A stretch of 40,806 bases of DNA from Clostridiaceae bacterium (GTDB lineage Bacteria; Bacillota; Clostridia; Oscillospirales; Acutalibacteraceae): NCBI GenBank assembly GCA_016282855.1, contig JAEELT010000001.1, forward strand, positions 1 through 40,806, written 5' to 3'. Numbering within the stretch: position 1 is the stretch's first letter; every line of letters begins with the position of its first letter. The notes under the pieces were generated by a model. That model was not told where the DNA came from. It saw only the letters and a program-made list of their open reading frames with translations, and made no database searches. A program made the position numbers and the translations under genes. Of this stretch, positions 22,724 through 30,514 are shown in pieces.

Positions 22724-24424
22724 ATGAAAAAAACAATTACTCTGACATGTGCGCTTATTGTTGCGCTCCTGTTTGTAACCAACGCTTTCGCCGAAGGTCT
22801 TCCTTCAAGGTACAGCTCTGTTGAGCAGGGTTATGTCACATCCGTAAAGGATCAGGAATATTCCGGAGCCTGTGAAGCCTTTTCAGCAATCAGCTGTATA
22901 GAGAGTGATTATATAATCAAAGGCTACGGTACAGTTGAAGATACTGATTTTTCCGAAACATATCTTTACTGGAACGCGAACATGCTTTACACCGATGATG
23001 AAGATTCCCGCATATACGGAGACGGAGTATATTTCGGTGATGACTATACTTTTTATGACTATTACAACAAAGGTCTTCAAAATAATGACCTTTTCTCAGT
23101 GCTTAAGACAGATTCCGCCATCGCTTACGAAAACGATTTTCCGTTTGACTCATTAAGAGAGGACAATCTCGATTACTATTCATCCGATAAAAGATTCGCA
23201 AGCGGCTGCAATGTAAGAGCAGATGAAGTTGTATATTTTGCAAGAGAAGACTTCGACTCCATCAAGCAGTGGATAATTGACCACGGCTCCGTATGCGTTA
23301 ATTTCTTCTCCGGGGAATACAGCAAAATTGACGGCAACACTGTTGCAACAGAAATCCTCGACCCAATGCCCAACCACAGCGTTGCAATAGTGGGCTGGGA
23401 TGATGATATAAGAACAAGCAGGGATTTCGCTTTTAAAGAAAAAAGAGGCGCCTGGCTTTGTAAAAACAGCTGGAGCGAATACTGGGGCGATAACGGATAT
23501 TTCTGGCTTCCTTACTCAAACAGTTCAATCGATGAAATGATCGGTATATCAATTGTAGTTGACGAAAGCTGCACAGATAAATACACATATAACGGCTATA
23601 CCCTTTATTCATTACTTGATGCTGAATCTGTCGCAAATTATTTCACTGCCGATTACAGCGGAACCGTCAGTCAGTTCTCCGCCATATGCGTTGAAGACTC
23701 CGACATCACAATAACCGCTTATGAGGATAACGGCGACAAGATTCCCGACTCCGGCAAAAAGCTTGCAAGCGTTACCGCGCATGCCGAAAAATTCGGATAC
23801 TATACATTTGATCTGGACACTCCGTTTTATATAAACGAAAACGAATCATTCTGGCTGGTTGCCGAATACTCAGAGTATCCCTTACTCGAGCTTGAATTAG
23901 GCGAATACACTTTCGGTAAAGAAAATGAATCTTATTATTATTATGAAGGCGAATGGTATGATTCGGCAGAAAACCCCAATTATGCAAACGCCGCCGTTGA
24001 CGCAATTATAACAGGCGAGCACGAATACGGTGAGCCCGTTACCGTAGAAGCCACTTGCGAACAGAACGGTTTTGAACTGACCACATGCGAAAAATGCGGC
24101 AAATCAACAAGAACCGAAACTCCGGCAAAAGGCCACGATTACGGCGAATGGGAAACAGCCATTCCCGCTGCGGGAGATCAGCCCGCACTGCTCGCAAGAG
24201 AATGCTCCGTTTGTGAAAAAACCGAACTAATGGTTGTCTACAGTGACGGAACCGAAGAGATAATTGATAATATAGACCAGTATTATCTTATAGTATCGGA
24301 AAATGATTCAGGCTTTAACATTTACAGATCTCTGACTGAAAACATAAACAGTTTTAATATTTTTACCGAAGCAGTAAGAGGAACGGCAGTCAAGACAATA
24401 CTTGAATTGGCAGAAGCAATTTAA
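22724..24424 (+). CDS. Secreted C1A (papain-like) cysteine protease with a C-terminal cysteine-pair region
   Basis: Signal peptide; 'VTSVKDQEYSGACEAFSAISCIES' (Q, C), 'PNHSVAIVGWDDD' (H), 'WLCKNSWSEYWGDNGYFWLPY' (N); C-terminal 'TTCEKCGKSTRT...RECSVCEKTE'. Confidence 0.87.
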   Translation: MKKTITLTCALIVALLFVTNAFAEGLPSRYSSVEQGYVTSVKDQEYSGACEAFSAISCIESDYIIKGYGTVEDTDFSETYLYWNANMLYTDDEDSRIYGDGVYFGDDYTFYDYYNKGLQNNDLFSVLKTDSAIAYENDFPFDSLREDNLDYYSSDKRFASGCNVRADEVVYFAREDFDSIKQWIIDHGSVCVNFFSGEYSKIDGNTVATEILDPMPNHSVAIVGWDDDIRTSRDFAFKEKRGAWLCKNSWSEYWGDNGYFWLPYSNSSIDEMIGISIVVDESCTDKYTYNGYTLYSLLDAESVANYFTADYSGTVSQFSAICVEDSDITITAYEDNGDKIPDSGKKLASVTAHAEKFGYYTFDLDTPFYINENESFWLVAEYSEYPLLELELGEYTFGKENESYYYYEGEWYDSAENPNYANAAVDAIITGEHEYGEPVTVEATCEQNGFELTTCEKCGKSTRTETPAKGHDYGEWETAIPAAGDQPALLARECSVCEKTELMVVYSDGTEEIIDNIDQYYLIVSENDSGFNIYRSLTENINSFNIFTEAVRGTAVKTILELAEAI

Positions 24425-24570: not shown

Positions 24571-25398
24571 TTGAGCAAAAAGCGAAGGATAATCAGCATT
24601 ATCCTGTTTGTGCTGATTGTAGCCACGCTTGTTACCGGAATCATTCTGACATCCGACCCGTCCGCCGAAAAAGAACCGATTAAAGAAGCAATGAAGGATG
24701 CCGTACTTCACGAATCGGATAAAATCAGTCTATTCGGTATAATACAGGTGAATCCCGGGCTTATTTCCGCTTTAATCGTTAATGGTGTGCTGATTCTCGG
24801 TGCATTGCTGCTGCGAATATTTGTTATACCGAAGTTTTCAATGAATCCGGGAAAGCTCCAATATGTAATTGAGCAGATAACAGGGCTTTTTGCCGGTGTT
24901 TCAAAAACAAACAGTCCGGACAGGCCGGTGTTTATCGGAGGATATATATTTGCCGCGGGCACATATATATTTATGAGCACAATGTTTGAGCTGCTCGGCA
25001 TTCAGGCAGTAACGGTAAACGGACATTCTGTTTCTCTGCCCGCTCCGCTCGCTGACATCAACGGAGCTATTGCAATGGGCTTAATGTCATACGGCGTAAT
25101 TCTTTTCGGCGGGCTGATATGCAACGGTCCTAAAGGTATGCTTCACGCGCTCAAGGATTTCTCACTGCCGATTTCAATGAGCTTCAGGCTTTTCGGCGCA
25201 TTGCTTTCCGGAGCGCTTGTAACCGAGCTTGTTTATTATTACGCTCTTACCAGCTATGTGCTACCTGTAATTGTCGGAATATTGTTCACAATACTTCACG
25301 CATTTATTCAGTCCTATGTTCTGATAACGCTTGTTTCCATATTCTACGGTGAATCAACCGAAAAAAAAGAAAAAGAAAAGAGGAAAAACCATGAATAA
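24571..25398 (+). CDS. atpB: F1Fo ATP synthase subunit a
   Basis: TTG start after a GGAG-type RBS; 'SLPISMSFRLFGALLSGALVTELVYYY' contains the essential Arg; 'ILHAFIQSYVLITLVSIFY'. Confidence 0.92.
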   Translation: MSKKRRIISIILFVLIVATLVTGIILTSDPSAEKEPIKEAMKDAVLHESDKISLFGIIQVNPGLISALIVNGVLILGALLLRIFVIPKFSMNPGKLQYVIEQITGLFAGVSKTNSPDRPVFIGGYIFAAGTYIFMSTMFELLGIQAVTVNGHSVSLPAPLADINGAIAMGLMSYGVILFGGLICNGPKGMLHALKDFSLPISMSFRLFGALLSGALVTELVYYYALTSYVLPVIVGILFTILHAFIQSYVLITLVSIFYGESTEKKEKEKRKNHE

Positions 25399-25777
25399 AA
25401 AATTTAAAATCATTATCTCTGTTCTTACGCTCACTATTCTTATCCTTGCAATTTCAATTCCCGCCCTCGCTGCTGTAGACGATGATATCACAGAGAACGC
25501 TCAGCTCGTTGCTCAGCAGGAAGAAGACGCTGAGACTGAATCCGATAACAGCACTGTAAAATACAAAGCCTTATCCGCTGCGATCCTCGTAGCAATTGCG
25601 TCAACGGCCGGTGCCATTTCAATGGGTATTGCGGTTAAATCCGCATCGGACGGTATTTCCCGCCAGCCCGAAGCCGCAGGCAGCATCAGAACAAACACGA
25701 TGCTCGGTCTTGTTTTCATTGAAACAGCCATTATTTACGCGCTTATCGTTGCAATCATTATTATCTTCGTGCTTTAA
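25391..25777 (+). CDS. atpE: F1Fo ATP synthase subunit c with N-terminal signal-like/acidic extension
   Basis: ATG 25391 (ORF-track start 25331 lies inside atpB); 'SRQPEAAGSIRTNTMLGLVFIETAIIYALIVAIIIIF' includes the RQPE loop and carboxylate helix. Confidence 0.92.
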   Translation: MNKKFKIIISVLTLTILILAISIPALAAVDDDITENAQLVAQQEEDAETESDNSTVKYKALSAAILVAIASTAGAISMGIAVKSASDGISRQPEAAGSIRTNTMLGLVFIETAIIYALIVAIIIIFVL

Positions 25778-25792
25778 ACGGAGGGATTTTAA

Positions 25793-26281
25793 ATGCCACT
25801 CAATATTGATATTCAGCAGATTCTGCTGCATATGCTGAATTTTACCATCCTGTTTTTCGCTCTTTATTTTCTGCTGTATAAACCCATAAGGAATTTCAAC
25901 AGCAAAAGAGATAAATACTTTAAAGAGATGGAAAAAAAGACCGGCGGTGCAATGGAAGAAGCAAACAAAATAAAAAAAGAGTATGAAGAAAAAATTGCCG
26001 CTGTCGGCGATGAAGCTGAGAAAATAATCGCCGCAGCCGAGGAACAGGCATCGAAAAAATCAGACATGATTATTTCGAACGCCAAGCAGGAGGCTAACTC
26101 AATCATACTCAAAGCAAAAACGCGCGCCAATAAAGAAAAATCTGCAATTCTATCCTCCGCAAACAAAGAAATCAGGGAGCTTGCCGAGCAGGCAGCTGAA
26201 AAAATCGTTATTGAAGGTACGCTTGAGTCCTACGAAAGCTTCCTTGAAGCGGTTGAAAATACAAATGAAGAAAAGAACTGA
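25793..26281 (+). CDS. atpF: F1Fo ATP synthase subunit b
   Basis: One N-terminal TM, then a long charged coiled coil; position between c and alpha. Confidence 0.92.
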   Translation: MPLNIDIQQILLHMLNFTILFFALYFLLYKPIRNFNSKRDKYFKEMEKKTGGAMEEANKIKKEYEEKIAAVGDEAEKIIAAAEEQASKKSDMIISNAKQEANSIILKAKTRANKEKSAILSSANKEIRELAEQAAEKIVIEGTLESYESFLEAVENTNEEKN

Positions 26282-26286
26282 TTAAA

Positions 26287-28006
26287 ATGGATATTTCCGA
26301 AAACAAAGCAATTCTTTATTCAGATAAAACTCCGTCTGATACTCAGAGAGAACGGCTGCTCGCTTTTCTCAGATCAAAACACAACGTTGACGACTATGAT
26401 TTTATTGAAGACCTTTCCATAAAAGACGGTTTCAAGCTTATGGTCGGCGACGAAGTATATGACTGGACCAATGAAGGCAGACTCAGGCAGCTTAAAAACT
26501 TTATAGAAACACTCGGCGGCAAAGAGAACTATGTTCCCCTGCTCAGAGGCGCAGTTAACAAATGGAAGCCCGATGCGGTTGTTGAGGAGATCGGCAGAGT
26601 GACAAGAGTAGGTGACGGAATTGCAGCCGTTAGCGGGCTTGACAGCGCCGAATACGGTGAAATTCTCCTCTTTGAAAACGGCGTCAAAGGTATGGCTCTC
26701 GACCTTAAAGAAAATGAAATAGGCTGTGTACTGTTTGACAGGGATCAGGATGTTATGCAAGGCAGCACCGTTTCGAGGTCCGGGAAAGTCGCGGGTATGC
26801 CTGTTGGCGAGGAATTTATCGGCAGAGTTATAGATGCTCTCGGCAACCCGATTGACGAAAAGGGCGAAATCAAAGTTGAAAAATATTTTCCCATTGAGCA
26901 TCACGCTCCCGGTATAATTGACAGACAGAGTGTCAACACTCCTCTTGAAACAGGAATTCTTGCCATAGACTCTATGTTCCCCATAGGCAGAGGTCAGAGA
27001 GAGCTTATAATCGGAGACCGTCAGACCGGAAAAACATCAATTGCTATTGATACAATACTCAACCAGAACGGTAAGGGAGTTATTTGCATTTATGTAGCTA
27101 TCGGTCAGAAGGCCAGCTCCGTTTCCGGTATTGTAAACACACTTGAAAAATATGGAGCAATGAATTACACAACAGTTGTCAGTTCAACAGCTTCAGATCC
27201 GTCCCCTCTTCAGTATATTGCCCCCTATTCCGGCTGCACTCTTGCCGAGTATTTTATGAATCTCGGTCACGATGTGCTGATAGTTTATGATGACCTGTCA
27301 AAGCACGCTGTTGCTTACAGATCACTCAGCCTAATTCTCGGCAGGAAGCCGGGCAGAGAAGCATACCCCGGAGATATATTCTATCTTCATTCCCGTCTGC
27401 TTGAGCGCTCTGCCAACATGGCTGACAACAGAGGCGGCGGAAGCATTACCGCTCTGCCGATTGTTGAAACCCAAGCCGGTGACGTTTCCGCATACATACC
27501 CACAAACGTTATTTCAATCACAGACGGTCAGCTTTATCTTGAGAGCGATCTTTTCTTTTCCGGGCAAAGGCCGGCAATAAATGTTGGTCTTTCGGTTTCC
27601 CGTGTCGGCGGAAACGCTCAGTCAAAAGCTGTCAAATCAGCAAGCGGTTCACTAAGGCTTGATCTTGCTCAGTACAGAGAATTGGCGGCATTTATGCAGT
27701 TTGCCGGCGACCTGGATGAAAACACAAAGAAACAGCTTGATTACGGCTCCTGCCTTATGCGTATGCTCAGGCAGAAACAGCATATGCCCTATTCGCGGCA
27801 CAGGATAATAATCATTCTTATTGTTACGCTGTCTCATCTTATGTCGGCTGTAAAAGATGAAGACTATGAAGAGGTTATTTCATTGATTTGTACCGATATA
27901 GAACGCAACTATCTGCAGGTATGCCATTCAATAAATGAAGAGGGAAAACTTACTGAAGAAATGAAAAAGACAATTCTCTCTTCAGCCGCTGAAACCATTA
28001 AGAACT

Positions 28007-28014
<8 letters not shown>
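26287..28014 (+). CDS. atpA: F1Fo ATP synthase subunit alpha with an N-terminal delta-C-terminal-domain-like extension
   Basis: 'GDRQTGKTS' Walker A, 'FFSGQRPAINVGLSVSRVGG'; 575 aa, ~70 aa longer than a typical alpha. Residues ~1-75 resemble the C-terminal domain of delta/OSCP. Confidence 0.93.

Positions 28015-30514
<2,500 letters not shown>

Follow-up and report, generated by a model that had tools for sequence, protein, structure and literature searches.

A delta C-terminal domain fused to the alpha subunit in Clostridia suggests F-type ATP synthases with more than one peripheral stalk

In its textbook form, the F-type ATP synthase is built with a single peripheral stalk and a single proton channel. 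An operon from which the delta gene is missing, and in which the alpha gene is unusually long, raises the question of what has become of delta and how many stalks the resulting enzyme would carry. We addressed this question for a 40,806-nucleotide stretch of DNA from a Clostridiaceae bacterium (hereafter the window; contig JAEELT010000001.1). Open reading frames together with Pfam and NCBIfam matches gave the gene order a-c-b-alpha-gamma-beta-epsilon, as a prior sequence-only reading had it, with all genes on the forward strand. The single operon copy of atpB (24571-25398; 275 aa, TTG start; PF00119, E 4.3e-12) encodes a subunit a that retains the FRLFG segment, including what we take to be the expected essential Arg. 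Subunit c, encoded by atpE (25391-25777; 128 aa from its ATG; PF00137, E 2.6e-12), has a signal-peptide-like N-terminus and an acidic linker ahead of the c hairpin; the Gln belonging to the Na+ signature is missing from it, which makes coupling of the enzyme to H+ likely. The b subunit, specified by atpF (25793-26281; 162 aa; PF00430, E 1.3e-15), is of canonical length with its C-terminus present, is the sole over-threshold b in its genome, and has its closest solved counterpart in Chloroflexus (9itj, E 2.6e-16). The fused atpA (26287-28014; 575 aa, the length originally claimed) is followed by atpG (gamma; 28007-28849; PF00231, E 3.6e-65), atpD (beta; 28849-30258; TIGR01039, 787.8 bits) and atpC (epsilon; 30251-30514; 87 aa), which matches PF02823 only and encodes the beta-sandwich alone, the C-terminal helices being absent.

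Subunits a, b, c, alpha (704 bits against TIGR00962), beta, gamma and epsilon of the F-type enzyme are thus all accounted for. A separate delta/OSCP with N- and C-terminal domains was not found in the operon, where the C-terminal domain alone occurs, inside alpha. As had been claimed, alpha opens with an ATG at 26287, only 5 nt beyond the b stop (last base 26281), which leaves no space for atpH. An Rfam scan of the operon returned no matches. We rejected assignment to the N-ATPases (alt_F1F0), since the scores for alpha (592.1 < 750.5 bits), beta (610.9 < 752) and gamma (61.4 < 282.4) all fell short, and the N-ATPase gene order, beta-epsilon-...-a-c-b-alpha-gamma, is not that of the window. 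Immediately upstream of the operon (22724-24424) lies a gene judged by eye to encode a 566-aa secreted papain-like (C1-type) protease, and elsewhere in the genome two adjacent frames are sized like V/A-type A and B subunits (G000:C57).

Several lines of evidence indicate that the N-terminal domain of the window alpha, approximately 72 residues followed by normal alpha, is the C-terminal, b-binding domain of delta. The fused segment proposed by the sequence-only reading is real; its quotation of the protein, however, ran from residue 8, the true start being MDISENKAILYSDK. The domain occupies residues 8-72 (26308-26502, forward strand) as an in-frame fusion and is followed by a junction and retained alpha N-terminal helix at residues 77-97 (26515-26577, forward strand); the match to the atpA model TIGR00962 begins at residue 80. 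PF00213 aligns to residues 8-71 at positions 105-170 of its 172 (E 5.4e-4), and although the score of 20.5 bits lies just below the cut-off of 22.3 bits, PF00213 is the best family for the segment. NCBIfam delta models likewise match this segment at their C-terminal ends. Across 29 genomes, mostly of the same genus, fused segments match only positions ~95-172 of PF00213, most of them above the cut-off (best same-genus segment, from a deltaC-alpha form, E 1.7e-10), and the full-length PF00213 matches in these genomes are separate delta genes.

Structural comparisons agree with the profile matches, and the lack of profile or structural similarity to delta that had been named as a refutation does not apply. 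A PDB search with the single window sequence found no delta match. When a profile built from 23 such segments (A2) was searched against all PDB sequences, the top match was 9jc1_I (E 7.4e-9), with positions 6-98 aligned to 5-101 across the junction, followed by the delta subunits of Bacillus PS3 (6n2y), 5dn6, Chloroflexus (9itj) and E. coli (5t4o). In the AlphaFold2 model of residues 1-100, which has a beta-alpha-beta-beta-beta-alpha fold, residues 11-60 make up a core predicted with high confidence (pLDDT about 90-95). Every one of the best 45 Foldseek matches of this model in the PDB belonged to an ATP synthase entry, with a probability of 0.99-1.00 in almost all cases, and the matched chains, where identifiable, were delta/OSCP or delta fusions, including 9jc1 over 94 columns. 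Comparison of the window with its ortholog in G007 gave pN 0.19 and pS 0.69 for the domain versus 0.18 and 0.66 for alpha, and the domain is therefore translated and under strong purifying selection, to the same degree as alpha.

The rest of delta appears to be missing from the organism as well as from the operon. No second OSCP was found in the window's own genome (85.6% complete, a draft in 140 contigs), and the single-contig genomes G453 and G697, which have the same fusion, contain the fused copy and no other delta, in keeping with the original claim that atpH is absent.

A natural stator fusion that contains the delta C-terminal domain is already known from mycobacteria, where b-delta has been described as a Rosetta-stone protein (PMC5709465; PDB 7jg5, 8j0s). 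There, however, delta is joined to b rather than alpha, is retained in full and is present in one copy per enzyme, whereas the window b is a separate 162-aa frame, a difference that had been recognized from the sequence alone. A canonical F-type synthase has the same other subunits and gene order and differs in its separate full-length delta and single stalk. The closest comparison among solved structures is an engineered enzyme. Ueno et al. (2025) argued that what holds the enzyme to one stalk is the N-terminal domain of delta, located at the threefold axis, and in Bacillus PS3 they deleted this domain, fused delta residues 105-178 to alpha and removed the epsilon C-terminal domain (PMC12229609). 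The resulting enzyme carried two stalks on average and up to three, each with its own a subunit, and its H+/ATP ratio nearly doubled, to 5.8 from 3.0, although triple-stalk particles were rare in cryo-EM (PMC12229609). The sequence-only reading, which proposed three b-binding modules per F1 and raised the matter of stalk number, agrees with this result for an engineered version. The construct (delta-DeltaN-alpha, PDB 9jc1) resembles the window in having the delta C-terminal domain on the alpha N-terminus, no delta N-terminal domain and no epsilon helices, and its boundary at delta residue 105 coincides with that of the window at profile position 105. It differs in being designed, and stalk number was measured for the construct and is inferred for the window. 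The same authors mentioned in passing a natural delta-alpha fusion without the delta N-terminal domain in Acidaminococcus fermentans (UniProt G4Q3K6 and A0A1I2C5T3 are cited with it) and predicted a multi-stalk enzyme (PMC12229609); our literature search found no follow-up of this prediction. By their description that fusion is like the window's, which comes from a member of the Clostridia, and the window, with the delta C-terminal domain in frame and neither a delta N-terminal domain nor another delta in a genome 85.6% complete, is a further case of the type noted in 2025.

We therefore favor, with reasonable though not full confidence, an H+-coupled F-type synthase that has dispensed with separate delta, bears the delta C-terminal domain on every alpha and probably assembles multiple stalks, at most three, each with its own a. 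In this mechanism the separate delta would have been lost together with its N-terminal domain, which normally occupies the threefold axis of the alpha3beta3 crown, where it limits the enzyme to one stalk. The C-terminal domain on each alpha N-terminus would provide three equivalent sockets for b2 dimers per F1 head, and each stalk would place a subunit a of its own against the c-ring. The number of protons moved in one turn would be the number of c multiplied by the number of a, giving a low-gear machine able to synthesize ATP at low proton-motive force or to pump many protons per ATP. We infer the stalk number, the a-subunit number and the raised H+/ATP of the window enzyme from the PS3 construct, because the fusion boundary is the same and epsilon is similarly truncated (87 aa). 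Multi-stalk F-type enzymes also look possible in nature, as PDB chain counts for Chloroflexus aurantiacus (9itj-9itu; four b chains with two delta chains in each entry; 72 b in 18 entries and 12 delta in 6) suggest two stalks without any fusion, delta being separate there, unlike in the window.

An unlikely but serious alternative is that the enzyme keeps a single stalk with delta tethered, one C-terminal domain binding b2 and the other two being spectators, and that the fusion chiefly saves a gene and fixes the ratio of delta to alpha. The operon has one normal gene each for a and b, and one a, c and b gene apiece counts against the multi-stalk reading in that it fits one stalk equally well. 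Moreover, fusion alone need not mean several stalks, because relatives with full delta-alpha fusions keep the symmetry-breaking N-terminal domain. In the window, however, that stalk-limiting domain is missing, and Bacillus PS3, given the equivalent change, formed several stalks with no history of co-evolution.

Least easily reconciled with a single stalk are relatives in which part of the stalk itself has joined alpha. We identified b'-deltaC-alpha triple fusions of 735-767 aa (L067-L075, in genomes G011, G034, G056, G055, G028, G002, G428, G411 and G299), each preceded by a separate b gene (about 140 aa), in which Pfam places ATP-synt_B at the N-terminus, OSCP positions 96-172 centrally and then alpha. 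The triple fusion is the sole F-type alpha found in six genomes (G011, G034, G056, G055, G428 and G299), and each of the five of these six that were checked has one more free b. Because each F1 contains three copies of alpha, such an enzyme would, barring cleavage of the chain, be tied to the membrane by three b' anchors, and we regard the triple fusion as the strongest argument from sequence in this set for multi-stalk enzymes. The AlphaFold model of a 736-aa example was poor (mean pLDDT 55), with helices at 2-50 and 65-119 and secondary structure of the delta domain at 158-231, and it was kept out of the fold search and of all claims about stalks.

It is much less probable that the organism also makes alpha without the delta domain, by internal initiation or proteolysis, leaving each F1 with only a single fused alpha in the role of delta. 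Some relatives do have an ATG about 17 codons ahead of the alpha barrel. In the window, however, the 32 codons leading up to the barrel contain no ATG, GTG or TTG in frame, so internal initiation cannot yield canonical alpha and we ruled out such a start; the downstream start that had been named as a possible refutation of the fusion finds no support here. The corresponding 32 codons are also free of in-frame starts in 29 other of the 77 fused loci. That mis-assembly or a wrong start joined unrelated sequence to alpha, conceivable in a draft of 140 contigs, can be set aside almost entirely, as the architecture recurs in dozens of independent genomes, some of them single-contig, and the selection on the domain at the protein level and the relatives already refute it.

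The survey of related Clostridia that the sequence-only reading had suggested found the fusion repeatedly. More than 60 fused relatives share the alpha fusion with the window, and in a class-wide sample an uninterrupted fusion is present in 35 of 391 genomes (27 deltaC-alpha, including the window, and 8 full delta-alpha), making it common in Clostridia; an order-wide sample has it in about 50 of 394 genomes. Elsewhere in the phylum, stop codons nearly always separate the delta gene from the alpha gene, G882 and G1073 being among the exceptions. Several genomes hold canonical and fused operons together (f52, f37). Canonical and deltaC-alpha operons were seen in one genome in G440, G477, G455, G605, G625, G645, G797 and G515.

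Arranged by architecture, the relatives form a series. Canonical operons with separate genes (L106) stand beside one with a free 72-aa gene for the delta C-terminal domain between b and alpha (L076:5008-5226; PF00213, E 1.1e-10), in a genome, G052, where no full delta was found. Full delta-alpha fusions of 668-697 aa (L078-L081 and L083) keep the delta N-terminal domain, the window's deltaC-alpha form is the commonest architecture, and one locus (L085/L060, G134:C17) encodes a tandem deltaC-deltaC-alpha with two PF00213 matches in one frame. The delta domain of L082 (G079:C26) is nearly eroded from alpha in an otherwise similar operon, and its genome has a separate full-length delta, a 179-aa frame, on another contig (G079:C6). 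As far as these searches reach, the tandem and triple fusions are undescribed variants.

A tree of 104 alpha-core sequences, rooted at the midpoint and with weak deep nodes, placed the window among 57 tips that form a clade made up solely of deltaC-alpha and its tandem or eroded derivatives (UFBoot 90), and the triple fusions in a clade of their own (100). L105, a deltaC-alpha, clusters with a pair of full delta-alpha fusions (100), pointing to more than one loss of the delta N-terminal domain, and L077 clusters with the free-deltaC lineage (100). Fitch parsimony required at least five changes between separate and fused states, and the fusion arose several times; the count of events is approximate, given the weak deep nodes, the midpoint root and the method-dependent placement of L104.

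To our knowledge, differences in H+/ATP between species have been thought due to c-ring size only. The relatives lead us to lean, somewhat less firmly than for the window enzyme itself, toward repeated natural evolution of F-type synthases with threefold stators and several channels, in the deltaC-alpha form and most clearly in b'-deltaC-alpha, where three stalks would be obligatory; genomes with both canonical and fused enzymes may then have two gear ratios per cell. If two or three stalks are indeed present, stator copy number would be a second, naturally evolved control of gear ratio, one that would suit fermenters living at low proton-motive force. What is new here is the commonness of the fusion across Clostridia, the series of architectures, the several origins and the triple fusion as the only alpha in six genomes. 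The series, from separate genes through full fusion and domain loss to tandem and triple fusions, offers a way to ask, in organisms instead of a designed construct, at which step stalk number changes.

Two other subunits vary among these operons. Epsilon is also short (about 80-96 aa) in same-genus deltaC-alpha and triple-fusion operons; many fused operons of other families keep an epsilon of 135-144 aa, and we therefore rejected the idea that fusion requires epsilon to have lost its C-terminal helices. Subunit c can have an extended, signal-peptide-like N-terminus with an acidic/Ala-rich linker, so that the RQP motif lies about 68-111 residues in, rather than about 35. This extension is found in none of 13 full delta-alpha and none of 7 triple-fusion operons, and in 1 of 15 canonical operons, where the single apparent case probably reflects an upstream start codon. 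It is common to the clade of the window and is present in 56 of 63 scored deltaC-alpha operons (the window, L087-L105 and others), as well as in the tandem and eroded forms.
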